Shown: piece by piece, positions 9,384-32,107 of the stretch
Numbering within the stretch: position 1 is the stretch's first letter
Layout: each line of letters opens with the position of its first letter
Assembly (NCBI GenBank): GCA_034190085.1
Contig: JAXHTS010000053.1
Location: forward strand, 1-42,859
Length of the DNA: 42,859 bases
Source of the DNA: Spirochaetota bacterium
GTDB lineage: Bacteria; Spirochaetota; UBA4802; JAFGDQ01
Direction: 5' to 3'
Notes under the pieces: model-generated
The model's database searches: none
Told to the model about the DNA's origin: nothing
Seen by the model: only the letters and a program-made list of their open reading frames with translations
Position numbers and translations under genes: made by a program

Positions 9384-9962
9384 ATGAAGGTTATTCACAT
9401 ATTAAAAAAAATTGAAATGCTGGATCAAGACATCAAGGATCTCAGAAAGCTTGAGAAATCACTAACAAAGAATAAATCATTTACTACACCTATATATATG
9501 TCCATTGAAAAGCAGATTAACATAATACTTGGCAACAGAATTAAGCTACTTGAATTAAAAATTGAGAATCCACCAGAAGATTTATTATTGGAGATTGATG
9601 GAACTGTAGACAAAGAGGAGATTAAACCTATTCAGAAGACTCCTGAGAAGAAAAAGGCCAAGAGAGCAAAGGCAAAAGTGAAGAAAGAGCCAGTATTGGT
9701 GAAGGACGAGATAGAAGAACAAGAAATACCAATGCTATTGCAGGATGATATTGACGAAAAGATTCAGTTACTTGAAAAGGGAAGAGAAAATAATAATACA
9801 ACTATCAAGGTGAAGGGGGAAAAAGAAAAAGTTGAAGATGAGGAGAATATAAAGATTCTTGATGTCGCTTTAGAAAAAGGAACCCTTAACAAGCAGGAGC
9901 TAGAGAAAGAGAAGAAAAGAGTAAAATTTTTTAAAGACAATTTCCCCAGAAGTGAATACTAA
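9384..9962 (+). CDS. hypothetical Lys/Glu-rich, probably coiled-coil protein
   Basis: I do not recognise this 192-residue protein. It has no signal peptide or membrane helix. Residues 1-75 look helical with heptad-like hydrophobics (HILKKIEMLDQDIKDLRKLE). Residues about 80-115 are strongly basic (EKKKAKRAKAKVKKEP) and the rest is acidic and low in complexity (Glu, Lys, Asp). It could be a nucleic-acid-binding or scaffold protein. A GGGGAGAG site precedes ATG 9384. Its stop overlaps the stop of the convergent cyclase gene by a few bases, so the two transcripts overlap tail to tail. Confidence 0.65.
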   Translation: MKVIHILKKIEMLDQDIKDLRKLEKSLTKNKSFTTPIYMSIEKQINIILGNRIKLLELKIENPPEDLLLEIDGTVDKEEIKPIQKTPEKKKAKRAKAKVKKEPVLVKDEIEEQEIPMLLQDDIDEKIQLLEKGRENNNTTIKVKGEKEKVEDEENIKILDVALEKGTLNKQELEKEKKRVKFFKDNFPRSEY

Positions 9963-12703
9963 TTCTTTCTCATCGCCTTTTCAATCAACAATTCAAGTTT
10001 ATACTTCTCAAGGAAATAGAGTGTGCTTCCCAGTACCGCTTCCTCCTTACGCAAATCGGTAAATACTAAATCCCTAATTATATTTACATGAATAGCATTA
10101 TCTCTCAACTCATTTAGCATGCCTGACAAGCTATGAAAATTGCCAGCAGCAATAAAATCAGATGAGACATCACCAGGTCCTACGATGTTATATAAGGTCT
10201 CCTTACCTTTATGTTTGGAGATTGAAGCGACCAATGTGCTCCTAGTGTTATATTTTAACAGATGTTGTCCCTGAAGGAAATTACTCTCATCAATTATAGA
10301 TAGTTTACCAAATCTATCGGTCCTCAGGCAATATACATTGACCATATCTGTCTTCAGATTGGAAAACATACTCACTTGTTTAACGCGCTTAATTATGTTA
10401 AGGCAAAAGCCATATAGAAAGACCAAAAATTCATCCTTTGCCTTCAGTGGATAGAAATAAACGAAGATATTCCCACTCTCATTAATGATATATGCAAAAA
10501 CAAAATCACCCCTCTCTTCATAAGCGATGGATATTGAATCCCTTTGAAACAAGTCATAATACCTGTTAAGGGCACTCAGTAGGCTCTCATCGCCATAAAA
10601 TTTATAAACGATCTCCCTTTTAGGCCTTAAAGTGAGCGTAGATATTAGACTGATAATATTCGGATATATAGCCTCATCAATCTTTTCCCCATCCCTTGTT
10701 ATTACAATATATTTACCATTCATATTGGTTACATATCTGGCGGCAGTATTTATCTTTTTTTCAACTATAAAAGAATAGGCCTCTTTAAACATATTAGTGA
10801 TTCTCTTATATAACTTCTTGTGTGGTTCAGGTGTATTTATGGCGCAATAATCATCAAAACCCCTCTTTAATTTAAGCCCATCCCTTAAAATCATAAAGAG
10901 AATCTTTGATAAGACCTCATCAGAATAATATTCCTTTAAAAATGATTCTCCCCAGCTTGTATGATAGAGATAATGTATTGTCTTAATAGAATCACCCACC
11001 TCATTATCATAATTTATTATGATAAAATTCAATAGGTTGAATGCAGGGTTGAAAAAATATTCATTCTTTAAATAAATACGTTCCCCAGTGAAAAAAAGGG
11101 ACATCTGATTTAATAGTTCCATTATTCGGGATTGGTCTATTCTACTATACCCAGATTGGATGTTCAGTCTAGTGAAAAGATGATCATATATCTGATTTAG
11201 AACTGTCCATACCAGCAACCTCAATATACTCTTCTCAGTCCTTATTGTTGTTGATACGAAGGTATCCTCTTCACTCGTATTTCTCTTATACAACCTCCAT
11301 TCACTCTCATTAAGGCCCTTATTAACCGGCTCCACATAGAGTATCGCTTCAAAGGGTGTATCCTTGAAAGTAATAAATTGCTCTATCTTATCCTTCTCAC
11401 GGGAAAAATGGGTCTTTATTTTTCTACTAAGGAGCATAAAATCAGTTTCGGAAATCTTTTTTGCTAAATTGAGCGAAGGTAACTGCATAGAAATCCTCTG
11501 ATAACTTAACAGCATAAACCTCTTAACCAGATCCCAAAACTTCATTATTTTATTAAAATCCCAATTATCGAAGTTATCAAGTTCTTGAATGACATTATCA
11601 TCCCATCCCCATTCCTTAACATAGCGGAACATAACTTCCACTTTATATGGAATACTCTTCTTCGCCTTTACACCCATATATTTGGATAATTGAGGAGCTA
11701 TCTTCAAATAGAGATTTTGCTTTAGTATATTAAGTAAAGTTTTATCCTCCATTGATGAATTATAGTAATCATATACCTCTTGAAACATCAGCAGATAAGA
11801 ATCGAGAATAGTATCATTCAGTTGTTCTCTCTGAATATTTATTTTCACTCTCTGACTCAATAGTGGTGAGTCATCACTTCCAAAAAGATATTTTTCCAAT
11901 ACACCGATCTTTATAATTGACTTAAAGGGATTCCCAAGAGATTTGATAATTTGAAAGAGTGCAGCGCCAAGAAAATCCTCTCTGGAAATCTCATATAGAT
12001 TTCCCAAATCAATAAAATCCTTCTGTCTCTTTTCTTCAGGCAACCTTTGATATAATTTCTCATATTCATCATCCCTAACAAAACGAGGTATTACCCACCA
12101 GAATGGGACCTTCCCTGTGATTATAATTGAACTTCTGAAGAATTCATCCTTTAATACAGCTCCAGTAGTTGAACCGAATGCCTCTTCAGTATCCTCTGCA
12201 AATATATTCTGTTTGATATTCTCTACATCGTTTATGAATAGATGTACCGATGCATCTATCTCAGTAGCAATCCATTTTTGTATTGCCTCCACCTTTTCCC
12301 TGAATCTCTCAAGCGATTCCTTTGAAACATTTCTGCTATTAATGCATATCCAATAATCAAAATCCGACTTTTTATTATATGCAATTGTTCCAATGCTCCC
12401 CATTACAGCCACCATCTCAATAAAGGGTTGATCCTTATTGATTTCAAACTTGACCACTGGGAACTTAGAACGAATAAACCTCTTTGTATCCTCATCAACC
12501 TCATAATTTACAATTCCAAAAGGAGTTTCCCCCTCTACATATCCAGGCAATTTCTTATTGTTTAAGCTTAACAAAAACGGAATGGAATTTATTATCCTCT
12601 TGGTGTTAAGGTTTGTTAGAAGCTGCTGAAAACGCTGAAATTTGATCTCATTAAAAAAGAGATATTTTTGTTTATTATTCTCTATTAGCTCAAGAAACTC
12701 CAT
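9959..12703 (-). CDS. class I (CyaA-type) adenylate cyclase family protein
   Basis: The 914-residue protein matches enterobacterial-type class I cyclases in its N-terminal catalytic half. MGSIGTIAYNKKSDFDYW contains the nucleotidyltransferase Gly-Ser (102-103) and Asp114-x-Asp116 metal ligands. It is followed by a Trp-rich WIATEIDASVHLF strand, a GSTTGAVLKDEFFRS block and GKVPFWWVIP. These correspond to the GS-DLD, EFYR and WWxxP blocks of E. coli CyaA. The protein is somewhat longer than the roughly 850 residues of CyaA, and its C-terminal half is divergent. It should make cAMP in the cytoplasm. No cAMP receptor, PTS component or phosphodiesterase is nearby. The catalytic residues are intact, so activity is likely but unproven. 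Confidence 0.85.
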   Translation of the reverse strand: MEFLELIENNKQKYLFFNEIKFQRFQQLLTNLNTKRIINSIPFLLSLNNKKLPGYVEGETPFGIVNYEVDEDTKRFIRSKFPVVKFEINKDQPFIEMVAVMGSIGTIAYNKKSDFDYWICINSRNVSKESLERFREKVEAIQKWIATEIDASVHLFINDVENIKQNIFAEDTEEAFGSTTGAVLKDEFFRSSIIITGKVPFWWVIPRFVRDDEYEKLYQRLPEEKRQKDFIDLGNLYEISREDFLGAALFQIIKSLGNPFKSIIKIGVLEKYLFGSDDSPLLSQRVKINIQREQLNDTILDSYLLMFQEVYDYYNSSMEDKTLLNILKQNLYLKIAPQLSKYMGVKAKKSIPYKVEVMFRYVKEWGWDDNVIQELDNFDNWDFNKIMKFWDLVKRFMLLSYQRISMQLPSLNLAKKISETDFMLLSRKIKTHFSREKDKIEQFITFKDTPFEAILYVEPVNKGLNESEWRLYKRNTSEEDTFVSTTIRTEKSILRLLVWTVLNQIYDHLFTRLNIQSGYSRIDQSRIMELLNQMSLFFTGERIYLKNEYFFNPAFNLLNFIIINYDNEVGDSIKTIHYLYHTSWGESFLKEYYSDEVLSKILFMILRDGLKLKRGFDDYCAINTPEPHKKLYKRITNMFKEAYSFIVEKKINTAARYVTNMNGKYIVITRDGEKIDEAIYPNIISLISTLTLRPKREIVYKFYGDESLLSALNRYYDLFQRDSISIAYEERGDFVFAYIINESGNIFVYFYPLKAKDEFLVFLYGFCLNIIKRVKQVSMFSNLKTDMVNVYCLRTDRFGKLSIIDESNFLQGQHLLKYNTRSTLVASISKHKGKETLYNIVGPGDVSSDFIAAGNFHSLSGMLNELRDNAIHVNIIRDLVFTDLRKEEAVLGSTLYFLEKYKLELLIEKAMRKN

Positions 12704-23267: not shown

Positions 23268-23319
23268 CGAACAGAATAATCCTATTGTCTTATCTATCAT
23301 TATGATTAAGGATTTAATA

Positions 23320-24927
23320 ATGAACCCTATTGTAAATAAAAAATTGATTATCATATCAATTGGATTCGTCATTCACCTCATTCCCTTTACTGGATGTGAT
23401 AAAGACGATAATGACCCTGATTTTCCCTATTGGTTAATAAATCCACAAACCTGTATATGCAGCGATGATTCATCCCAAGATGATCCCCTTTATGCAGACC
23501 AATGGCATTTAGAAAATAGAGGCCAGGGTGGAGGCACACCTGGAGAGGATGTAAATGTAACTTCAGTATGGGATTCAGGGAACAAGGGCGAGGGGATTGT
23601 AATCGCAGTAGTAGATGATGGGCTTGATGTTGATCATGAAGATCTGTACTATGCCATCTATCCAAATTTAAACTATAACTATCTAACTAACGGCACCAAT
23701 GTAACCCTTGGAAGTCATGGCACCTCAGTAGCTGGAGTACTCGCAGCCAGGGATATGAACGATAGCGGAGGGCGAGGCGTCGCACCATGTGCATGCTTGG
23801 CATGCTATAATCTTTTACAGGCAATTAACAGCGCTAATGAGTTTGATGCGATGATACGTAATAATAATAATATACATATATCTAACAACAGTTGGGGACC
23901 TCCGGATTATACTGGTCAACTAATTCCAGCGGACTCATCCTGGTTAGCTGGTATTGCCGAGGGTCTGGGAACAGGCAGGGATGGCAAGGGCATCATCTAT
24001 CTATGGGCAGCGGGGAATGGCGGCAAACCCACCAGCTCACCCAGCAATGAAATTGACAACTCAAATTATGATGGATATGCCAATTCCTATGGTGTAATGG
24101 CAATTGGCGCCTTGGCAGATAATGGAGAAAGGGCCTATTATTCTGAAAAGGGAGCCAATCTATGGGTATGCACCTACTCAAGCGGAGGCGCCTCCGGTAT
24201 AACCACAACTGATATTACTGGAGAAGAGGGTTATGATCCAGGCGATTATACTGACACATTTGGCGGCACTTCATCGGCTACTCCACTTGCTGCGGGTGTA
24301 GTAGCGCTCATGTTAAATACAAATCCTAACCTTTCCTGGAGAGATGTAAGGCTTATCCTTGCTAAAACCGCTAAAAAGGTAGATGCCAGTGACACCGACT
24401 GGACAACAAATGGAGGGGGTTATAATATAAACCACAAATATGGATTTGGAGGTATAGATGCTGAAGCTGCTGTTAATATGACAAAATCATGGACCAATAT
24501 CCCAGACCAGTCAACCTATTCAACCCCTTCTAAAAGTGTCAACATAACAATCCCAGATAATAACTCAACTGGCATATCGGATACCATTTCAATATCCTCA
24601 GGGATTGACTTTATAAAAATTGAATATGTATCAATTGAAGTTACTATAGACCACTCCTATTCAGGGGATTTAGAAATAATTCTAACCTCTCCGTCAGGAA
24701 CCGATAGCGTGTTATCCGAAAAGCATATATGTTATGAAATATCAGATCAGTCAGCGACACAGACACGATGCAGCTATTTTAATGATGCCGCTTCCTTTAC
24801 ATTTGGCTCTGCGCGTCACCTAGATGAATCTCCTATTGGCGTCTGGACATTAAATATAAAGGATTTGCAACAAGCGGACACAGGAAGTCTAATAGATTGG
24901 AGCATGAAATTCTACGGGAGGGAATAA
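23320..24927 (+). CDS. kexin/furin-like subtilase (S8) lipoprotein with P domain
   Basis: The 535-residue protein begins with a lipoprotein signal (lipobox PFTGC, Cys at about residue 26). A short linker leads into DPLYADQWHLENRG, the usual start of the catalytic domain in kexin-like proteases. The active site is complete: Asp99 (VVDDGLD), His133 (SHGTSVAG), oxyanion Asn233 (WAAGNGG) and Ser318 (GGTSSATPLAAGV). NNSWGPPDYTG matches the SWGPxDDG block of the kexin branch. The C-terminal 140 residues are a P domain (DHSYSGDLEIILTSPSGT, PIGVWTLNIKD, DWSMKFYG). No propeptide fits between signal and catalytic domain. I chose ATG 23320, with AAGGAT upstream, over 23302. The enzyme would sit tethered to an outer face of the cell. 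The next gene begins within its stop codon. Confidence 0.9.
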   Translation: MNPIVNKKLIIISIGFVIHLIPFTGCDKDDNDPDFPYWLINPQTCICSDDSSQDDPLYADQWHLENRGQGGGTPGEDVNVTSVWDSGNKGEGIVIAVVDDGLDVDHEDLYYAIYPNLNYNYLTNGTNVTLGSHGTSVAGVLAARDMNDSGGRGVAPCACLACYNLLQAINSANEFDAMIRNNNNIHISNNSWGPPDYTGQLIPADSSWLAGIAEGLGTGRDGKGIIYLWAAGNGGKPTSSPSNEIDNSNYDGYANSYGVMAIGALADNGERAYYSEKGANLWVCTYSSGGASGITTTDITGEEGYDPGDYTDTFGGTSSATPLAAGVVALMLNTNPNLSWRDVRLILAKTAKKVDASDTDWTTNGGGYNINHKYGFGGIDAEAAVNMTKSWTNIPDQSTYSTPSKSVNITIPDNNSTGISDTISISSGIDFIKIEYVSIEVTIDHSYSGDLEIILTSPSGTDSVLSEKHICYEISDQSATQTRCSYFNDAASFTFGSARHLDESPIGVWTLNIKDLQQADTGSLIDWSMKFYGRE

Positions 24928-25550
24928 TGAAGGTTTCTATTAATTCTACAACAATTCTTATATGTATATATTTATACTTGGTTCTATCTAATGCTCCTCT
25001 GTTCTCACAGAAAAAGGATTATAAAAAAGGTAACAGTAAATGTTGCACCGAGGTTATCTGGCATGATGGGAAAATAAAGAGAAGATTGAAAATTTTGCCA
25101 AGTTTAATAGCGGAATTTATCAATGACACAAACCAGAGGAATAACATAAGTAATTCAGATGCAAATGCAAAGATTGTATATAGCAAGGCTGGCGTTAATC
25201 TCTGGGAAATCACACATAAGAAAATGAAAGATACACTTAAGAAGGGGAGAATTCCATCAAACTTGAATGGTAATTATTCACCTGTATTTAGAGATTCTTC
25301 TGGTCAAAGAAGAGCCTTGCCTGGTAATATAATAGTTTTTATGGAACAGCGTTGGGATCGTAAAAGGGTGAATCGTTGGGCAGAATCTAATAAACTTAAA
25401 ATAATTAAACGTATCTCTTCTCATCATAACGCATATATCATCGAAACACCCCCAGGGATGGCTAGCCTGGATATCTCAAATAATCTAAGAGATGCAAGAG
25501 GGGTTGCTTCGGTTTATCCAAATTGGTGGAAAGAAGTCTCTCCTCGTTAA
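24927..25550 (+). CDS. secreted protein with subtilase-propeptide-like C-terminal domain
   Basis: The 207-residue protein has a signal peptide (residues about 1-28, ending SNAPLFSQ). Its last 75 residues read like an S8 protease propeptide: a strand NIIVFMEQRW, a helix DRKRVNRWAESNKLKIIKRI, HNAYIIETP, a helix with SLDISNNLRDARGV and the closing ASVYPNWWKE, matching the family's usual 'V..V.PN' ending. The middle part is unrecognised. ATG 24927 shares its A with the protease stop codon, so the genes are coupled; longer starts run inside the protease. The protease itself lacks a propeptide, so this gene probably encodes a separate folding chaperone or inhibitor. That pairing is inference. Confidence 0.7.
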   Translation: MKVSINSTTILICIYLYLVLSNAPLFSQKKDYKKGNSKCCTEVIWHDGKIKRRLKILPSLIAEFINDTNQRNNISNSDANAKIVYSKAGVNLWEITHKKMKDTLKKGRIPSNLNGNYSPVFRDSSGQRRALPGNIIVFMEQRWDRKRVNRWAESNKLKIIKRISSHHNAYIIETPPGMASLDISNNLRDARGVASVYPNWWKEVSPR

Positions 25551-29804: not shown

Positions 29805-31703
29805 TTAGAGCTTGCCCCAAAGCTTGGATTTTTTGGGTTTTGATCCTTCTTCCGATTCCTGTGTTAAGGGGATGGTGAGATGATATACACCATGATCGAC
29901 CTTGGTCTTGTAGGGTATATTAGCCTTTTCCAAAACATGCAGCATGGACTTGTTAGAAGAGAGTATGTCAGCGGTTAGAGCCTCAATATTTCGCTCTTTG
30001 GCTATCTCGATTAAACGCTTGAGAAGATAAGAGGCAATACCTCGATTCTGGTATCCTTCATCAACTACAAAAGCCAAATCAGCACATCTTTTATCAGGCC
30101 ACATAACATATCTCCCCTCTGCTATTATTGTTCCATAACCAGAATCTCCAACCACACCCACTAAAGAGAGTATATCGTGATGATCTACATTAACATAAAG
30201 CTGCATCTTATAATGGGGCATGGCCTTCATTGGAGAAAAATATCTATAATATATGGCCTTATCAGAGAATCTATAGAAGAGCCTGCGCATCTGTTCTTCA
30301 TCCGATGGCAATATGGGACGAAATTTTACCATCAAATCCCCTGGAAACATTTTTGTTTCAATAAGCTCATTGGGATAATGGGTTGCTGACTCAGGAATAT
30401 ATATCTGATCCTTATAAATAAGATTCATATCCTTAGCCTGATTGATCAATTCTTCACGATAATCTGGATGTGCTATATCGATTAGAGCCATTGCCCTCTG
30501 GCGAACTGTGCGTCCCCTAAGGGCTGCAATGCCATTCTCCGTAACAACATAGTCGATTAAATTGCGTCCTGCCAAGGAATCCTGATAGTCCTTTAATATG
30601 GGAAGGATGTTTGATTCAAGGTTTCGATTGCGAGAGGGCAGAGCTATAACTATTTTACCACCCTCAGACATAGATACACCGGATAGATAATCCTGAGACT
30701 CGCCAGGCCCTGCAGAAATGCGCCCTCGTCCTGTATGAAAGGCCACCTCCCCTGTCAGGTCTACCTGACGCGATGGGAATATCATGATAAAATTATCTTG
30801 CTTGGCAATCTCTTTTGGATCCGCAACAACATCAATCCCTTGAAACTCAACTAATGGATTTTTGTGCAACCAGTCATAAAGTTCCCGTGTTCCATATGCA
30901 TAGGATACAACGCTTCTCCCAAGGAAGGACCCCTTGCGTTGATTTGTGACAGCCCCACTCTTGATCAGATCCATAATGGCATCAGTAACGAAAGCGGAAT
31001 GTATGCCCAATTCACGCTTGTTTGTAAGCTGCTTAGCCAAAGCCTCATAAAGCGAACCCAAGGAAAATGCAACACAACTCCCATCATTGACCAATTCTGC
31101 GATATTCTTAGCCACTCCATCGAATACAGGATGAATGTTGGGTCTAGAAATCTCAATTACAGGATCACTACTCTCAACAAAGCAATCGAATGCGTCTACC
31201 GGAATCAATGTATTCCCCAATGTATAAGGCACCTCAGGATTGATCTCGCCCACAGAAAAGGACGCTTGTTCGATTGCCTGACGCGCTGCATCAACCGATA
31301 CACCTAAACTAACATAACCCCTGTCATCAGGAAGAGAAATCTGTACAAAAGCTATATCTATCTGCAGGGTTTCTGAACTTATAAGAGACGGGATCTTTGA
31401 AAAACGCGCAGGTATAAGATCCACCCTGCCCTCGGCTATTGCGCTATATGCAACCCAACCAGCAAAAAAGGTTTTGAGACGAAAGGAGTCCGGATACTTC
31501 TCCTCAATGGAAACAGTATCGCCTATACTCACGAGCTGAATGAGTTCAACATCCATGATGTTGCCCTCTTCTGAAGTCAACATGCTCTTTATTAGAGTTC
31601 GAGGCTCACCAGTACCGGTGCTTAAAAACAAGCTATCCCCCGGTTTTATCCTTCTAATCACCTCATCAACATCTACAATTTTTTCTCTCCAACCTTCACT
31701 CAT
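29805..31703 (-). CDS. acetyl-CoA hydrolase/CoA-transferase fused to a GNAT acetyltransferase domain
   Basis: The 632-residue protein has an N-terminal CoA-transferase of the acetyl-CoA hydrolase / 4-hydroxybutyrate CoA-transferase type (residues about 1-430), with the glutamate-bearing motif YVVTENGIAALRG and RAMALIDIAHPDYREEL. A GNAT domain follows (about 455-600), with the acetyl-CoA-binding block YQNRGIASYLLKRL. It probably moves CoA between short acids or hydrolyses acyl-CoA; the GNAT part may acetylate a lysine for control. ATG 31703 is placed best, six bases after GGGGA; TTG 31709 and ATG 31706 are alternatives. This fusion type is known in other bacteria. Confidence 0.87.
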   Translation of the reverse strand: MSEGWREKIVDVDEVIRRIKPGDSLFLSTGTGEPRTLIKSMLTSEEGNIMDVELIQLVSIGDTVSIEEKYPDSFRLKTFFAGWVAYSAIAEGRVDLIPARFSKIPSLISSETLQIDIAFVQISLPDDRGYVSLGVSVDAARQAIEQASFSVGEINPEVPYTLGNTLIPVDAFDCFVESSDPVIEISRPNIHPVFDGVAKNIAELVNDGSCVAFSLGSLYEALAKQLTNKRELGIHSAFVTDAIMDLIKSGAVTNQRKGSFLGRSVVSYAYGTRELYDWLHKNPLVEFQGIDVVADPKEIAKQDNFIMIFPSRQVDLTGEVAFHTGRGRISAGPGESQDYLSGVSMSEGGKIVIALPSRNRNLESNILPILKDYQDSLAGRNLIDYVVTENGIAALRGRTVRQRAMALIDIAHPDYREELINQAKDMNLIYKDQIYIPESATHYPNELIETKMFPGDLMVKFRPILPSDEEQMRRLFYRFSDKAIYYRYFSPMKAMPHYKMQLYVNVDHHDILSLVGVVGDSGYGTIIAEGRYVMWPDKRCADLAFVVDEGYQNRGIASYLLKRLIEIAKERNIEALTADILSSNKSMLHVLEKANIPYKTKVDHGVYHLTIPLTQESEEGSKPKKSKLWGKL

Positions 31704-32107
31704 CATCAATCCCCGAAAAGGATAAGAGTATACTTAACATCACATACAATTCATAATATAATTAAATCCCACCATTTAAGGGTATCACAGTTCTTTCCAT
31801 AAGTCAACTCAACTCTGTTATTCGCCTTACATTTCACATCCTCATTCATCAAAACCAATTTTTATATGATTCATATAATTTTCAAGGTTAGTACTGAGTC
31901 CTTATTGTGGGGCAGGCATCATTATGGTTGATATCAATAATCCTTTATCAAATAATTAAATGTGTAGATGACTATATGTGTTGCAGGAATGCTAAAGTCA
32001 TTAGCAACCTTCAGTTCATGCTCATCCATAGCACCTGAGCATTTTCAAATACCTATCAGGTTCATAATGAAATTTATTACAGCTTTTTATATATCTCATT
32101 ATAATTT
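31704..32107. other. about 400-base intergenic region
   Basis: The gap lies between two minus-strand genes and holds the presumed promoter of the CoA-transferase gene. On the minus strand, 31934-32029 opens a 31-codon frame (MDEHELKVANDF...) with no ribosome site. A stop lies just above it, so it is at best a gene fragment. Confidence 0.35.

Follow-up and report, generated by a model that had tools for sequence, protein, structure and literature searches.

A kexin-like lipoprotein protease of Spirochaetota and a candidate external prodomain encoded beside it

The protease gene and its downstream neighbour

The window, by which we mean the whole stretch of 42,859 nucleotides analyzed, carries a kexin-like protease gene followed by a smaller gene that we call ORF2 (Table 1). 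The in-frame ATG at 23320, which follows AAGGA and is also where the earlier note begins the gene, is a likelier protease start than 23302. The N-terminus leads into a lipobox-like LIPFTG-C of the loose spirochaetal type, with Cys32 encoded at 23395–23397, and the protein is predicted to be a lipoprotein. Only 28 residues lie between Cys32 and DPLYADQWHL, the onset of kexin homology. Thus, as far as can be read from the sequence, the protease has no cis propeptide and passes from lipobox to catalytic domain, as the earlier note had described. The same note had credited it with a P domain and a complete triad, and both were recovered: alignment to Kex2 placed the triad at Asp105, His139 and Ser324, the oxyanion residue at Asn239, the S1 aspartates at Asp202 and Asp257 (counterparts of Kex2 D277 and D320) and the S2 aspartate at Asp106.

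These features are shared with the proprotein convertases kexin and furin (S8B), which likewise combine a catalytic and a P domain with the triad and the S1 and S2 aspartates. Among solved structures, Kex2 (E 4e-62) lies nearest, with furin second (6e-58) and ASP of Aeromonas next (1e-33), so that the protease stands nearer to kexin than to ASP. Since a cis N-terminal propeptide is usual, although not strictly defining, for S8B, the enzyme appears to be kexin-like rather than a canonical kexin zymogen. Among spirochaetes, Treponema denticola has dentilisin, PrtP (with PrcA and PrcB), also a subtilisin-like lipoprotein protease with partners encoded by neighbouring genes. In a comparison at the level of the protease only, the PrtP model NCBIfam NF033595 scored 59.8 bits, below its cut-off of 300.

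The base at 24927 is common to the protease stop codon TAA (24925–24927) and the ORF2 start codon ATG (24927–24929), which confirms the overlap reported earlier. ORF2 has a Shine-Dalgarno sequence, GGGAGGG, immediately 5′ of its ATG, and its own signal peptide agrees with the earlier description of a secreted partner, as a prediction. The last residue is Arg207 (codon 25545–25547). No promoter or terminator signals were found clearly above shuffles. The shared base could suggest an artefact, that is, one normal protein split by a sequencing frameshift or gene decay. However, the catalytic domain precedes the prodomain-like part, the reverse of a cis zymogen and an order that no frameshift yields; moreover, ORF2 comes with a signal peptide and a Shine-Dalgarno sequence of its own, and the layout recurs in many genera, which makes this explanation negligibly probable. 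Elsewhere in the window we noted an acetyl-CoA hydrolase/transferase with a fused C-terminal GNAT acetyltransferase domain (29808–31709, minus strand) and, in a spirochaete, a class-I (enterobacterial-type) adenylate cyclase (9962–12703, minus strand).

Table 1. Coordinates of the protease and ORF2 genes and their parts in the window
Feature	Position	Strand	Basis and remarks
Kexin-like (S8B) lipoprotein protease, CDS (lipoprotein predicted)	23302..24927	+	541 aa; probable start at in-frame ATG 23320
Protease signal peptide and lipobox (predicted), ending IPFTG-Cys32	23320..23397	+	Read from sequence; Cys at the corresponding place in relatives
Protease Peptidase_S8 catalytic domain	23587..24450	+	PF00082, E 7e-43, residues 96–383; Kex2 alignment
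Protease P domain (proprotein convertase)	24622..24912	+	PF01483 P_proprotein, E 1.5e-17, residues 441–537
ORF2, secreted trans-prodomain protein (predicted)	24927..25550	+	207 aa; TAATG overlap with protease stop
ORF2 N-terminal beta-rich region	25035..25298	+	Conserved in family (WHDGK-type motif, IAEF, LKKG, YSPVF); alignment and structure model
ORF2 C-terminal S8-prodomain-like domain (~80 residues)	25299..25547	+	PF22148, model topology, VIA-align, C-termini, cis match

Resemblance of ORF2 to subtilase prodomains

The reading of the end of ORF2 as an S8-propeptide-like domain, made in the earlier note, gains support from its relatives. The S8 prodomain model PF22148 gives the window ORF2 18.7 bits, below the cut-off of 21, but matches 9 of 20 ORF2 members at E<0.1, with a best E of 8.6e-7; one of the members checked, L010, lies above the curated cut-off. 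Two spirochaetal subtilases with a fused N-terminal prodomain, L035 (E 2e-5) and L059 (E 2e-4), also match ORF2 in that prodomain. In addition, the ORF2 profile aligns to the cis prodomain of a fused Chloroflexota P-domain protease (L090), through the last ORF2 position. This alignment, whose score was reached by none of 3000 shuffles, ends on Arg208, directly before the mature start VAFDPQWHL, at the predicted cleavage site. No prodomain alignment was obtained between the ORF2 profile and the cis prodomain of L005 (Anaerolineales), which was assigned through its S8_pro-domain PF16470.

A direct sequence search of ORF2 against the PDB returned chance matches and no relative. The predicted topology of the ORF2 structure model, which is weak (pLDDT 65, two sequences), fits an S8 prodomain or I9-type fold. 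VIA-align matched the model to pro-subtilisin E (Z 6.8), to the furin-bound PC1/3 prodomain (6.5 and 6.1) and to the ORF2 partner of ASP (3wqb_B; Z 5.6, rmsd 1.6 over 57). As the fold is common, all Z values lie below 8 and unrelated ferredoxin-like folds stand among the matches, we take these structural similarities as supporting evidence only.

In the closest studied analogue, ASP of Aeromonas sobria, maturation depends on an external chaperone, also named ORF2, which inhibits the enzyme with an IC50 of 84 nM (PMC5638518). The C-terminal Lys of this ORF2 was seen at the catalytic Ser, and asp-orf2 operons are reported for Vibrio, Shewanella, Chromobacterium, Pseudoalteromonas and Aeromonas (PMC5638518). 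The structures 3HJR, 2MK4 and 3WQB (the complex) and the Pfam family PF18492 (ORF_2_N) belong to this system. ASP and the spirochaete pair have in common a propeptide-less P-domain S8 protease with a partner gene just downstream, and both partners are secreted (by prediction here), with a prodomain-like C-terminal part. In ASP-ORF2 a basic C-terminal residue lies at the active site, and the spirochaete ORF2 has a basic C-terminus too. The two proteases also differ in location, ASP being extracellular and the spirochaete enzyme a predicted lipoprotein.

The partners themselves could not be connected. PF18492 did not match the spirochaete ORF2 at E up to 1 (window, L002, L010 and L014), nor any of the 20 at E up to 0.1, whereas the Vibrio and Pseudoalteromonas partners do match it. 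When the spirochaete profile was compared with those of the Vibrio and Pseudoalteromonas ORF2, the similarity was not significant, and the N-terminal region gave no match at all. Over the prodomain register hhalign gave P 0.004, but HMMER scores were hardly better than those of shuffled sequences (equalled by 117 and 773 of 3000), so we do not claim homology to the gammaproteobacterial ORF2. In the protease tree, from which ASP itself is absent, the spirochaete copies and one Chloroflexota sequence form a clade (95/95), and Vibrio and Pseudoalteromonas fall outside it, with alphaproteobacterial enzymes (81/72).

Distribution of the pair and the C-terminus of ORF2

To assess conservation we surveyed 296 Spirochaetota genomes, many of them fragmented and incomplete, and counts were not corrected for phylogeny. 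The close protease clade was detected in 23 genomes and the ORF2 family, by profile search, in 19, all of them within the 23; ORF2 was found in none of the 273 genomes lacking the close protease (Fisher 2e-26, uncorrected for kinship). A twentieth profile match, in G217, was rejected, for it sits in a 677-aa fused protease and not in a separate ORF2. The two genes are adjacent on the same strand in 16 genomes, usually overlapping or no more than tens of bases apart, mostly with ORF2 directly 3′ of the protease; in G116 ORF2 lies between two protease genes. Unlike asp and orf2, the spirochaete genes are sometimes unlinked: in three genomes of one genus (G101, G120, G195) ORF2 is on a different contig with no protease nearby and is still kept, its product ending in LR or KR. 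Distances among proteases and among ORF2 proteins correlate (mirror-tree r 0.59, above all 5000 permutations), to which shared species history contributes. One Chloroflexota genome (G357) also encodes a family member (E 4e-24), as a separate gene ending in Lys, and a plasmid search for ORF2 found none. The conservation of the pair far exceeds chance expectation.

Two observations concern individual loci. The sole close kexin-like protease copy of G195 (L026/L068) matches in two frames, which suggests a frameshift or sequencing error, and its ORF2, located elsewhere, is intact. The G357 homologue (L095, 1498–2241, minus strand) lies immediately upstream of its protease, a large kexin-like enzyme that has a long extension at the N-terminus.

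The C-terminal residue of ORF2 is Lys or Arg in 19 of 20 members, against 29% (68 of 231) of the background long frames (P about 1e-9, assuming independence). In the lone exception, G203, EVGHR occupies the aligned position and a tail follows it. Both S1 aspartates are kept in every spirochaete protease copy with a complete triad; the ASP-type enzymes of Vibrio and Pseudoalteromonas have neither, and the last residue of their ORF2 partners is Q or F. Because basic ends go with the S1 aspartates and Q or F ends with their lack, the ORF2 C-terminus looks like a P1 residue for the S1 pocket of the protease. It might still be argued that ORF2 is an unrelated secreted protein sharing only the operon and a ferredoxin-like fold, given the weak structure model, the common fold and the sub-threshold Pfam score in the window. 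We judge this improbable in view of the strict co-occurrence, the retention of unlinked ORF2, the basic C-termini and the matches to cis prodomains of several enzymes.

With the more sensitive profile, 4 of the 23 protease-bearing genomes (G188, G199, G148, G112) have no ORF2. The proteases of G188 and G199 show Asp to Ser, His to Leu or Ser, Ser to Gly or Arg and oxyanion Asn to Asp replacements, and that of G148 has Gly for the catalytic Asp. G112 is the sole case of the four with an intact triad and an undetectable ORF2. Since G188 and G199 nest beside the ORF2-bearing G185 in the protease tree, their loss of ORF2 is secondary. As an observation in its own right, the G188 (L016) and G199 (L019) proteins are kexin-like P-domain pseudoproteases, well conserved in the remainder of the protein. 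In the related genomes G112 (L063, 3415–4260, minus strand) and G148 (L064, 149–940, plus strand), the protease adjoins a gene for a secreted protein of ~260–280 aa that does not look like a propeptide on visual inspection and could be a substitute partner.

That ORF2 is lost where the enzyme is dead suits an inhibitor no less than a chaperone. ORF2 could accordingly be only an inhibitor, an immunity-like brake on a protease that folds unaided. Such proteins exist: inhibitors that resemble propeptides occur as stand-alone proteins (PMC6993865), and in the stand-alone I9 inhibitors POIA1, yeast IB2 and SUB1-ProM the prodomain fold is encoded by itself and acts on subtilases, as proposed for ORF2. 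Triad-lost genomes without ORF2 are what one expects of a brake, while a dead enzyme might still need a folding helper. Several alphaproteobacterial P-domain proteases begin at the catalytic domain, with neither propeptide nor partner seen, and appear to manage without one; therefore, a need for a chaperone cannot be assumed. Targets of SUB1-ProM-type inhibitors keep their own cis prodomain, whereas the proposed target of ORF2 has none. On the other hand, the protease shows no other propeptide, nearly every active copy keeps ORF2, and ASP requires its ORF2 to mature (PMC5638518). A role restricted to inhibition thus seems rather unlikely to us, although clearly less so than an unrelated protein.

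A probable split subtilase zymogen

We consider it highly probable that the pair is a split subtilase zymogen, with ORF2 as a trans-acting prodomain that serves as chaperone and transient inhibitor. The earlier note had proposed that the propeptide was split off as a trans partner, and the proposal is strengthened by the apparent lack of a cis propeptide, by the conservation of ORF2, also when unlinked (3 genomes), and by a C-terminus that is basic like a kexin P1 residue. In such a system, the lipoprotein protease would be exported without a propeptide, and ORF2 would use a signal peptide of its own to reach the periplasm separately. There, the C-terminal prodomain of ORF2 would pack on the catalytic domain, aid its folding and block autolysis. 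Its terminal Arg would fill the S1 pocket that Asp202 and Asp257 make up, much as the new end of a propeptide does after cleavage. In kexin and furin the prodomain is in cis and is cleaved after a basic residue, whereas here it would be a separate gene product ending at that residue. As ORF2 is already translated with the P1 residue as its end, autocleavage would be unnecessary. Activation would occur when ORF2 dissociates or is degraded, and would yield a membrane-anchored kexin-type processing protease.

The trans-prodomain principle is already known from ASP-ORF2, the sole bacterial system of this kind that we found described in the library searched. What is new are the hosts (Spirochaetota and one Chloroflexota), a partner family that fails PF18492, a protease closer to eukaryotic kexin than to ASP, its predicted lipoprotein anchor, the unlinked pairs and the coupled decay of triad and partner. 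We give about even credence to the broader view that this split and that of the Aeromonas system had separate origins, or that the split is so old that the partners diverged beyond likeness. ORF2 would then represent a second external-prodomain family, unlinked in some genomes, discarded in pseudoenzymes and with a stop codon in place of the autocatalytic cleavage site of kexin.

This second family of partners, apparently unrelated to the first and found in a different phylum, offers unlinked pairs and, in the dead enzymes, natural controls. With these it can be asked if prodomains serve chiefly to assist folding or to restrain the enzyme, and by what route zymogens split in evolution. The pair would also provide a kexin-type processing protease of bacterial origin, with an inhibitor that could be supplied as a separate protein.
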